Of a stretch of 47,267 nucleotides of DNA, positions 2,129-5,496 are shown one piece after another. Every line of letters starts with the position of its first letter. Positions within the stretch are counted from its first letter, which is position 1. The DNA is from a virus. A program made the position numbers and the translations under genes. The notes below the pieces were generated by a model. The model had not been told where the DNA came from, made no database searches, and was given only the letters and a program-made list of their open reading frames with translations. Location: positions 1 through 47,267 of the IMG/VR virus record IMGVR_UViG_3300049893_002755, one strand, 5' to 3'.

Positions 2129-2479
2129 ATGAACTTAGAAAGGAGATCGTTAGATGAGTTGGCACTTTTTGCAGGAGCAGGCGGGTCAGGCGAATCGCAA
2201 ATCTCCAAGATTGAGGACCGTAGCGAAATACCCAACTCCGAAAAAGGGCCACATGTGCGGGGGAAGTGGGAATTTTGCGCAGATAAAAAGATTGGAGAGC
2301 GACGGAGAGATCACGAATCAAGAGGCGATTGCAATGGGCAGTGGTGGGGATCTGAATCCGGATTGGGTCGAGTGGCTGATGGGGTGGCCCATAGGTTGGA
2401 CCGACTTGCAGCAATTGGAAATGGACAGGTTCCAAGCGTGGTTAGACTCGCATGGGAAGAGTTGATGAGGATTCAATGA
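2129..2479 (+). pseudogene. C5-cytosine methyltransferase remnant, frame A
   Basis: ATG at 2129 sits 1 base after the primase stop. Reading frame A begins with motif I of C5-methyltransferases (LDELALFAGAGG) and ends with a canonical motif X region (GRVADGVAHRLDRL then AAIGNGQVP). The catalytic PCQ loop, the ENV motif and the target-recognition region are all missing, and the middle is out of register. At 116 aa against about 300-450 for the family it cannot be an active enzyme. It overlaps the frame-B gene at 2154-2465 along nearly its whole length. Confidence 0.6.
2154..2465 (+). CDS. Stand-alone C-terminal region of phage C5-methyltransferase, frame B
   Basis: 103 aa, start ATG after AAAGGAG with an 8-base spacer. 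Residues about 29-103 resemble the C-terminal part common in phage C5-methyltransferases: YPTPKKGHMCGGSGNF, then LNPDWVEWLMGWPIGWTDL and MDRFQAWLDSHGK. It lacks every catalytic motif. Either it is translated as a small leftover domain or the locus is decaying. The same DNA in frame A also encodes methyltransferase motifs; see findings. Confidence 0.6.
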   Translation: MSWHFLQEQAGQANRKSPRLRTVAKYPTPKKGHMCGGSGNFAQIKRLESDGEITNQEAIAMGSGGDLNPDWVEWLMGWPIGWTDLQQLEMDRFQAWLDSHGKS

Positions 2480-2664: not shown

Positions 2665-3041
2665 TGGACGTTGTAGTTACCGTACCCAAAAATCTGTGGT
2701 TCGACTGGATCGACGAGGGCGATGCCGCAGGAACGCCTGAAACAGGCGAAGAATGGGGCTTCTACCTCTCGAACTATGGCCCAAGGCCCAACATAAAGCC
2801 GGGTGATCGTGTTTATATCGTCGCTTTTGGCCGTTTGCGTGGATATGCGCCGTTGACCCGGCTCAATCTCGATCCGCTTTGTCTGTGTCGTCGTGGTGGT
2901 GCCGTAGCTGTGACGATTGACGAGGAAATACGCGGGTTTCAGGGCTGGCGGTATCGGTGGTGGGATCGGGGGTTAGAGGTGCCTTTCCCTGATTGGCGGC
3001 AGGTGAAACGGAAAGTAAAGGAACAAGGGAGGCTATTTTGA
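2664..3041 (+). CDS. Hypothetical PUA/ASCH-like protein, 125 aa
   Basis: The core GDRVYIVAFGRLRGYAPLTRL (about residues 48-68) looks like the strand-rich part of PUA/ASCH-type folds, but no diagnostic motif confirms this. Conserved tryptophans occur near both ends. The protein ends in KEQGRLF, whose codons also form the GGGAGG ribosome site and TTGA start/stop overlap for the downstream methyltransferase. It belongs to the 2476-3916 coupled cluster, so a link to DNA modification is plausible but unproven. Confidence 0.7.
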   Translation: MDVVVTVPKNLWFDWIDEGDAAGTPETGEEWGFYLSNYGPRPNIKPGDRVYIVAFGRLRGYAPLTRLNLDPLCLCRRGGAVAVTIDEEIRGFQGWRYRWWDRGLEVPFPDWRQVKRKVKEQGRLF

Positions 3042-3916
3042 TAACAGGCGAAAACTGGACGTTGTACCAAGCAGACTACCGGGAAACCCTGCGCATCGTA
3101 GCCGAGCAAGGTGGGTGCGATTTGGTTGCAACATCTCCACCCTATTGCGATTGCCGGACATATGGTGCCGGTGTGTCGTGGGGTGACGCCGACTATGCAG
3201 CTCTCGGAGACGCCGTATTCTCAGCATTGAAGCCCGGTGGTCATGCGCTGATCAACGTCGATGCACCGGTACGCGAGTGGCGCAAAGGGTTTGGTACGGA
3301 AAGGGGATTCCACCCATGGAAAATGATGATTGATTGGGCGGAAAGGGTAGGATTCAGGGTACCGGATAGGTTGGCGTTTGGGCGCCAAGGACTACCCGGT
3401 GCGTATGGTGGGCGGTTCCGCAATGATTGGGAGCCGCTGCTATGGTTTCAAAAGCCGGGTGAAGGCGGATATTTTGATGCAAGCTCTTTGGCTATACCTG
3501 CCAAGTGGGGGCGTGCGGTGGGCACAAAAACCATTCATGGCGTTAATGCCGACGGCTCCAGACCAACTAAGGGCTATTCAGGGTATAATGCTGAAAATAA
3601 CCTGAAGGCTCGTGGAACGCTTTGGGAGTATGGAGCGACGGGTGGGAGCCACTCAGGAGCCGACGACATAGAAGCAACCGACCATCCCGCACGATGGCCA
3701 TTCAAATTAGCCGAAGACATCATCCTCTGCTTTTGCCCCAAAGGCGGCCTTGTATGCGATCCATTCTGCGGAGCGGGAACAACGGGCGCGGCGGCTATTG
3801 CGCATGATCGTCGGTTCGTGGGTGGCGACTTGTACGCCAGGAACGACGGCAAAACCTGGGCAGAGATAGCAGCGGGGATATTGACGGAACGACAAAGGCA
3901 ATTGAGGTTATTCTAA
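3038..3916 (+). CDS. DNA amino-methyltransferase (N6-adenine or N4-cytosine), beta-type order
   Basis: 292 aa from a TTG start at 3038 that overlaps the preceding stop and follows GGGAGG. Motif IV TSPPY is at about residues 33-37 and the AdoMet-binding motif I DPFCGAGTTGAAA is near the C-terminus (about 246-258), the permuted beta-class order. The central region varies, as expected for target recognition. It probably methylates phage DNA against host restriction. It ends in QLRLF. A truncated, diverged copy of its first 95 residues occurs at 5200-5496. Confidence 0.9.
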   Translation: MITGENWTLYQADYRETLRIVAEQGGCDLVATSPPYCDCRTYGAGVSWGDADYAALGDAVFSALKPGGHALINVDAPVREWRKGFGTERGFHPWKMMIDWAERVGFRVPDRLAFGRQGLPGAYGGRFRNDWEPLLWFQKPGEGGYFDASSLAIPAKWGRAVGTKTIHGVNADGSRPTKGYSGYNAENNLKARGTLWEYGATGGSHSGADDIEATDHPARWPFKLAEDIILCFCPKGGLVCDPFCGAGTTGAAAIAHDRRFVGGDLYARNDGKTWAEIAAGILTERQRQLRLF

Positions 3917-4018: not shown

Positions 4019-4168
4019 ATGGAACCAAGGACAACCAGATTGACCATTGTGCTGCCTGCTGAGGAAAGGCGGGCCATTCGTGCCGCAGCAAAGGGGTCTG
4101 GAAAAACAGTCTCGACATATTTGCTGGAACTGATCCGTCAGGCACGGGCGATTGAATGTACCCGGTAG
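4019..4168 (+). CDS. Arc-type ribbon-helix-helix repressor, 49 aa
   Basis: The short beta strand RLTIVLPAEE, then two helices (ERRAIRAAAKGSG and TVSTYLLELIRQA), is the classic Arc/MetJ fold. ATG 4019 lies 6 bases after the -10 box with no ribosome site, so the mRNA is probably leaderless; an earlier in-frame start would lie upstream of the promoter. The twin palindromes in its promoter make autorepression very likely. Other targets were not seen in this window. Confidence 0.85.
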   Translation: MEPRTTRLTIVLPAEERRAIRAAAKGSGKTVSTYLLELIRQARAIECTR

Positions 4169-4761
4169 GGTGGCTCCCCATGGATGCGGCATGGTGGTCA
4201 ACCATATCCGCCAGCCTGTCACAACCGTGGCCAAGGGAGGCGGTTTTGATGGATTTGCGTTGGTGGTCAGATCAGGAACGAACCACCAATGGGCAGATTA
4301 GGAGGCCGGGGAGGCCGTCTCTGGCTATTAGATGGGGTTGGACCGATAGGCAGGCCCGTTCCATCATGGCGGATACTGCGGCGTGGTCTGATCCAAAACT
4401 CTTGACACGTCAGAGCGAGCGTCCAGCCGATGTCCAGCGAGCGTCCAGCGAGCGTCCAGCCGATGTCCAGCGAGCGTCCAACGAGCGTCCAGCCACGTCT
4501 ACAACGAACGCCGAAAATATCAAAGAAATGTCCAGCGAGCGTCCAGCGAGCGTCCAGCGAGCGTCCAGCGACTCTCTGACAGATGGCATTGAAGGCAGCG
4601 AAAAAAGCCCCTCACATACACATACACATACACAGATCACAGACACCTTTAATGCTCCCCCTACCCCCTCACTGGGGGAGAAAGAGCTTGACTTTGCTAC
4701 GCTCTTCTTTTCAATCCCCACTCACGCAGACCTGATCCGACGGATGTCAACATCTGCTTGA
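4156..4761 (+). CDS. HTH replication-initiator-like protein with internal DNA repeats
   Basis: Up to 201 aa; an in-frame ATG at 4180 is an alternative start, and neither has a good ribosome site. The N-terminal half (LRWWSDQER, GRPSLAIRWGWTDRQARSIM) resembles the winged-helix part of phage replication or primosomal proteins. Residues about 87-140 are low complexity with recurring SERPADVQRAS units, encoded by tandem GTCCAGC repeats. A Thr/His stretch (HTHTHTQ) follows. By analogy to lambda O, the gene may encode an initiator and hold an origin. Function inferred. Confidence 0.65.
   Translation: MYPVGWLPMDAAWWSTISASLSQPWPREAVLMDLRWWSDQERTTNGQIRRPGRPSLAIRWGWTDRQARSIMADTAAWSDPKLLTRQSERPADVQRASSERPADVQRASNERPATSTTNAENIKEMSSERPASVQRASSDSLTDGIEGSEKSPSHTHTHTQITDTFNAPPTPSLGEKELDFATLFFSIPTHADLIRRMSTSA
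4421..4569 (+). repeat. GTCCAGC repeat array inside the HTH gene
   Basis: Ten exact GTCCAGC heptamers plus one variant (GTCCAAC), mostly spaced 9 or 13 bp apart (GCGTCCAGCGA units), in two blocks around a unique 30-40 bp stretch. They encode the ERPAxVQRAS repeats. Iteron-like spacing suggests protein binding, or alternatively recombinational expansion. Confidence 0.75.
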
Positions 4762-4819: not shown

Positions 4820-5203
4820 ATGCACCCAATTTATAAAGAAATAGGCGGAAAAATCCGCACAATGCGGAAAAAGCGAAGGTTGACGCAAACCCACCTTGCA
4901 GAAAAGCTTGGTATTGCAAGGGTAAGCCTGACCAACTGGGAAGCTGGAAGATCGGGAATTCCGCTGTCAGCCGTTGTAGACATCGCCGAAATCCTGGATG
5001 TGCAGGATTATCGCGTGTTTCTACCTGGTGAGCCAATGCGTGAAGGATTGAGCGAGGTTGAATCTCTGAAACTCACGATAGCCGAGGCGATCCAGCATTT
5101 GAGTGGGTCAGAGTCGCTACAGAAAACCGACCGTACAATCAGGCTATTGCAAGAGGCTGTGCCGGATTGGAGGGAGATACTGAATGGGAAGACATTATGC
5201 TAA
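4820..5203 (+). CDS. XRE-family HTH regulator, 127 aa
   Basis: The start at MHPIYKEIG is preferred because the domain begins directly afterwards; a longer form from 4778 is possible, and neither start has a strong ribosome site. The HTH_3 domain spans IRTMRKKRRLTQTHLAEKLG and ARVSLTNWEAGRSGIP (about residues 12-50). The C-terminal half is helical (SLKLTIAEAIQHL). It probably binds DNA as a dimer. It overlaps the truncated methyltransferase by 4 bases. Target unknown; it is a candidate for one of the operators noted here. Confidence 0.8.
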   Translation: MHPIYKEIGGKIRTMRKKRRLTQTHLAEKLGIARVSLTNWEAGRSGIPLSAVVDIAEILDVQDYRVFLPGEPMREGLSEVESLKLTIAEAIQHLSGSESLQKTDRTIRLLQEAVPDWREILNGKTLC

Positions 5204-5496
5204 CCGGCGAAAACTGGACGTTGTACCAAGCAGACTACCGGGAAACCCTGCGCTTGGTATCGGAGCAGGGCGGGTGTGATTTGGTTGCAACATCTCCGCC
5301 CTATTGTGATTGCCGGACATACGGGGCAGGTGTAAACTGGGATATGGCGGATTATTCAGCGTTGGGCGATGCGATATTTGCCGCGTTGAAGCCGGGTGGC
5401 CATGCGCTGATCAACGTTGATGCGCCGGTGCGTGAATGGCGCAAGGGGTTTGGAACGGAAAGAGGCTTTCATCCTTGGAGGATGAAATTGCCATGA
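5200..5496 (+). pseudogene. Truncated duplicate of the DNA methyltransferase N-terminus, 98 aa
   Basis: Nearly collinear with residues 1-95 of the 3038-3916 enzyme, including TSPPY and APVREWRKGFGTERGF, but it stops after HPW and lacks motif I, so it cannot bind AdoMet in the normal way. The first ~48 bases match the intact copy exactly and the rest is clearly diverged, which points to a related gene brought in by recombination rather than a recent duplication. The ATGA at its end couples it to the helicase, so it may survive only as a translational leader. Confidence 0.8.

Follow-up and report, generated by a model that had tools for sequence, protein, structure and literature searches.

A probable deletion remnant and its intact relatives suggest that phage C5-methyltransferase genes encode two subunits in overlapping frames

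We analyzed a virus record from IMG/VR with a length of 47,267 bases, the whole of which is called the window here. On its plus strand, two reading frames are open over shared bases at 2129-2479. Frame A (2129-2479, 116 aa) is the probable remnant of an alpha-type C5-methyltransferase ORF and frame B (2154-2465, 103 aa), in the +1 frame of A, that of a beta-type ORF, both identified via PHROG matches and tblastn. Each frame B codon consists of positions 2 and 3 of a frame A codon and position 1 of the next. Translation of frame A yields only motif I (LALFAGAGG, 2159-2185) and the motif X ending GRVADGVAHRLDRLAAIGNGQVP (2366-2434), with motifs IV, VI and VIII deleted. Frame B retains the N-terminal residues MSWHFLQEQAG, followed by the remaining part of a linker (2190-2351), which based on comparison with relatives is a proposed target-recognition region of the 'CGGSG' type, and by the ending LNPDWVEWLMGWPIGWTDL (2352-2408), which is motif-IX-like by eye only; the last residues of frame B are MDRFQAWLDSHGKS. 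A Shine-Dalgarno-like AAAGGAG (2139-2145) lies 8 nt upstream of the frame B ATG. At the position of the relatives' frame A start codon, the window carries TTA (2150-2152) and frame A would thus need an upstream start, ATG 2129. Further downstream, a 300-nt stretch at 3027-3326, which includes the start of a DNA methyltransferase gene (3041-3916), is repeated at 5186-5485 with 81% identity; this copy, 2159 bp downstream of the first, is truncated and represents a second methyltransferase remnant in the region. Tandem GCGTCCAGC-type repeats at 4430-4570, inside the ORF at 4156-4761, encode repeated SERPADVQRAS.

Based on tblastn coordinates, frame B residue 12 (approximately) joins sequence matching residue 219 (approximately) of full-length B, which means that ca. 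207 codons (ca. 620 bp) are missing, in register for both frames; arithmetic on the same coordinates places the junction at approximately 2186-2200. The proposal of the initial annotation that this locus preserves both endings after an internal deletion is thereby borne out. No PF00145 match was found anywhere in the window record and, with motifs IV, VI and VIII lost as well, methylation by the window copy is very unlikely. Judged by its sequence, the window copy is probably an inactive deletion remnant of a dual-frame C5-methyltransferase gene, and a decaying remnant is the simplest reading. Alternatively, the short ORFs may represent a retained small protein, for example the C-terminal part of B serving other methyltransferases as decoy or partner. 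The near-ideal Shine-Dalgarno sequence before the frame B ATG, the fact that neither frame is closed in the window and the existence of short PHROG families consisting of the B end (phrog_26627, 71 aa; phrog_35493, 68 aa) would fit such a role, but the deleted form has no close relative among the fetched loci and further methyltransferase debris lies close by (5186-5485), making this explanation rather unlikely. A search for sister phages via the neighboring methyltransferase gene returned a single distant match.

The two frames have separate relatives in PHROG: phrog_32758 and phrog_363 for frame A, and phrog_26627, phrog_35493 and phrog_1008 for frame B. Using either frame as the tblastn query led to identical bases in Acinetobacter phage ABMM1, Salmonella phage S9-5 and Stenotrophomonas phage SOVA965. 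In full-length relatives, frame A encodes ca. 225-305 aa with motifs I-VIII and X, whereas the window copy carries I and X alone. The third frame of these genes is rich in stops and, in the closest relatives, frame B is open alongside the entire A gene (ca. 300 codons). While the overlap had initially been put at about 100 bp, it extends over the whole gene in full-length relatives. We collected 80 viral loci picked by A alone, 79 new loci picked by B alone, 80 bacterial or archaeal loci picked by B and a further 80 from a second A family that is more distant (family 2), in each case as the best 80 per scan and not as a random sample. With the exception of 2 of 83 genes, frame B was open over almost the entire length of A, and 160 stops were observed in the +1 frame compared with 535 expected, most of the 160 being the one or two located at the ends of a gene. 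Overall, hundreds of diverged genes keep both frames open and conserved. In family 2, frame B opens at about codon 50 and in some genes at the start. The viral loci are metagenome contigs in which a few frameshifts may be assembly errors; in L019 and L206, indels that are either real or such errors exchange the frames mid-gene and yield chimeric A/B readings. In L203 and L210, A carries an in-frame stop and B is intact.

The co-occurrence of the two endings was determined in both directions. In family 1, comprising phage genes chosen by A only, the B ending was present in the +1 frame of 75 of the 77 A genes with motif X, while synonymous-codon shuffles produced it in 8 of 1540 cases (0.5%). 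Family 2 gave 64 of 68 A genes and 9 of 1360 shuffles. In the reverse direction, motif X was found in frame A for 142 of 152 B endings (76/79 and 66/73), and six of the ten exceptions (L162, L168, L219, L222, L234 and L247) are split layouts with motif X in B itself. Among the sampled phage genes of this type, the two-frame layout is thus near-universal, and coincidence does not account for the overlap. These reciprocal counts (75/77 and 142/152) uphold the initial suggestion that two widespread endings are overprinted frames of one sequence: the other ending appears in the alternative frame far more often than in shuffles and coincidence is not supported. The accompanying idea of frameshift derivatives does not hold in the sense of endings that diverged in different genes, as both coexist in the same genes, at full length and under dual selection.

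To characterize selection, each substitution was assigned to a class according to what it changes in either frame, using our own OLGenie-style implementation, so that all dN/dS values are approximate. For 39 independent pairs, NN/SN was 0.32 for A and NN/NS was 0.34 (0.27-0.41) for B, with a +2 control of 1.53; the rate at sites synonymous in both frames was near saturation (1.40 vs ca. 0.2). This check for dual-frame selection, also raised in the initial annotation, shows that purifying selection on frame B is as strong as on frame A. The +1 frame of neighboring genes, which was open in 0 of 28, gave 0.75 (0.59-0.95), placing the value for B well below background. In pairs 5-20% apart, A position 1, which is the third position of B, was more variable than A position 3; neighboring genes showed the reverse pattern of change (0.086, 0.055 and 0.241 for positions 1 to 3). 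Family 2 provides an internal control, with an A-synonymous rate of 0.885 in codons 1-48, a part in which B is mostly closed, that falls to 0.298 once B opens. Over motifs I-VIII, A is more constrained (0.11-0.24) than B (0.44-0.50). For the family 1 linker between motifs VIII and X, the place expected for target recognition, A is neutral at 0.94 (0.82-1.11) and B constrained at 0.24 (0.16-0.34); the corresponding values in family 2 are 0.87 (0.75-1.01) and 0.50. At the gene end, both frames are constrained. It is extremely improbable that B is an artefact, its +1 frame kept open and similar by the conserved residues of A together with codon bias. Conservation of A does shape B over motifs I-VIII, but this explanation is rejected by the synonymous shuffles, by the +2 control and the neighboring genes, by the control within genes and by the neutrality of the A linker. 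For the family, a spurious frame B is refuted by the shuffles and three controls, while it could still hold for the truncated window copy.

An AlphaFold model of A showed pLDDT values mostly between 70 and 95 for residues 1-180 and mostly below 50 for residues 188-287, which were devoid of secondary structure save two short helices near the end of this segment; the final helix (288-300) was again confident. Via Foldseek, the catalytic domain of A matched M.HhaI and M.HaeIII over ca. 170 residues. PF00145 covers A at profile positions 4-180 of 324 only, the whole domain not being present in one frame, and both comparisons fall mainly within the catalytic half. Frame A is predicted by the model to be without a folded recognition domain, in which it differs from M.HhaI and M.HaeIII. 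The B linker falls into recurring types, and A backbones that are 93-96% identical carry different ones. With the A linker neutral and disordered in the model, the B linker constrained and linker types switching, target recognition would be located in B, and a target-recognition subunit is the best reading of this protein.

Pfam and NCBIfam searches with frame B gave no match, and its AlphaFold model (pLDDT 57, pTM 0.24) contained no confident structure, with Foldseek returning few viral proteins only, at poor superposition. The segment LNPxWVEWLMGWP resembles motif IX by eye, and hhalign of B against a small reference set of 8 ordinary methyltransferases did not recover this motif. Of the initial claim that both frames encode C5-methyltransferase C-termini, it thus stands that both are open and correspond to real protein families at matching positions in other phages, whereas B is not recognized as a C5-methyltransferase C-terminus. 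The lack of detectable methyltransferase homology, together with selection over the full length of B, including over motifs I-VIII, would also be compatible with a real overlapping protein that has a separate job, such as counter-defence, regulation or blocking of host enzymes, and is dispensable for methylation. We regard this as unlikely, since selection on B is strongest exactly where A has no recognition domain and motif X itself moves into B in the six split loci.

In family 1, the two starts are arranged as ATG-A-ATG (consensus ATGAATGAG), with the B ATG following 4 nt after that of A and both usually behind one Shine-Dalgarno sequence. In loci selected by B, the A position is frequently occupied by GTG, TTG or a codon other than a start; where a start codon is missing at this position, an upstream A start is present in nearly all cases. 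In the six split loci, A ends soon after motif VIII and B (314-526 aa) spans both the B ending and motif X. A related arrangement is seen in Mycobacterium phage Roosevelt (L255), where gp77 and gp76 are adjacent 'DNA methylase' genes: gp77 ends just past motif VIII, and a B-like end and motif X lie in gp76, which is read in the +1 frame. These two products are probably one split enzyme. Another conceivable explanation is a ribosomal shift from frame A into frame B past motif VIII, yielding one fused enzyme and leaving the B start incidental. The catalytic part of A followed by the B linker would indeed restore the ordinary domain order, and in Roosevelt A stops right after motif VIII while B continues through a motif X. 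However, B possesses a conserved ATG, in most cases preceded by a Shine-Dalgarno sequence, selection acts on B already before any point at which a shift would be useful, and in the common layout the fusion would be without motif X. Such a shift is accordingly decidedly unlikely.

C5-methyltransferases of the two-polypeptide kind have been known since 1995. In M.EcoHK31I, the gene for beta (176 aa) is nested out of frame inside that for alpha, and both polypeptides are required in vitro. Phage B likewise lies in another frame and is open and selected, with its translation predicted, but it is longer (ca. 300 aa in family 1) and starts 4 nt after A. Further, M.EcoHK31I belongs to a restriction-modification system whereas the phage pairs are orphan enzymes. 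In M.EcoHK31I, motifs I-VIII and X are found in the larger subunit (alpha) and motif IX in the smaller (beta) (PMC3404938). Compared by described motif layout, the larger subunits of M.EcoHK31I and M.EaeI (both YGGCCR) thus resemble phage A. In contrast to the phage pair with its selected recognition region in B, the predicted recognition domain of M.EcoHK31I has been assigned to the larger subunit (PMC3404938), which is contrary to our assignment for the phage genes. M.AquI carries motifs I-VIII in one polypeptide and IX-X in the other (PMC3404938). This split is not seen in the common phage layout, where X is in A, but is approached by the minority of split loci and by the mycobacteriophage pair; the split loci differ in that the overlap of B with A extends as far back as the start of A or its vicinity. 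The ShiLan element (PMC11855218) also represents an out-of-frame protein hidden in a phage methylase gene, but is an inserted HNH homing endonuclease, while B is a putative subunit overprinted on the catalytic part.

Taken together, we consider it likely that the window holds a deletion remnant and that intact genes encode a catalytic A and a recognition protein B that form, as in M.EcoHK31I, an enzyme of two polypeptides. A single mRNA of intact relatives would be translated from two starts 4 nt apart. Frame A would give the catalytic subunit, consisting of motifs I-VIII, a disordered neutral linker and motif X, and frame B, in full +1 overlap, a second protein with the target-recognition region and the motif-IX-like end. 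By analogy with alpha and beta in M.EcoHK31I, A and B would most likely come together as a single enzyme. In this large group, the majority of phage and prophage C5-methyltransferases may well be obligate two-protein enzymes with specificity encoded in the +1 frame, so that recognition would evolve and be exchanged in a frame ignored by annotation. If true, an oddity of one or two restriction-modification enzymes would become the rule for a very common phage gene, and the enzyme is predicted to fail when frame A alone is cloned. A literature search, with subscription papers mostly outside its reach, yielded no description of such an overlap in phage C5-methyltransferases; near-universality in phage orphan enzymes, full-length overlap and recognition in a hidden frame appear to be new. 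To our knowledge, the overlap is among the longest conserved same-strand overlaps in tailed phages.

Existing annotations name either frame or both of them, and the second protein is in most cases absent from databases or wrongly labelled. At L381 (WP_232060884.1), L008, L002, L005 and L006, the public annotation either presents B as the gene or calls both frames 'DNA cytosine methyltransferase'. The two-frame reading would explain why phrog_1008, which corresponds to the B frame, is labelled 'DNA methyltransferase' and RefSeq WP_232060884.1 'hypothetical', as well as the paired 'DNA cytosine methyltransferase' entries in Paenibacillus phages.
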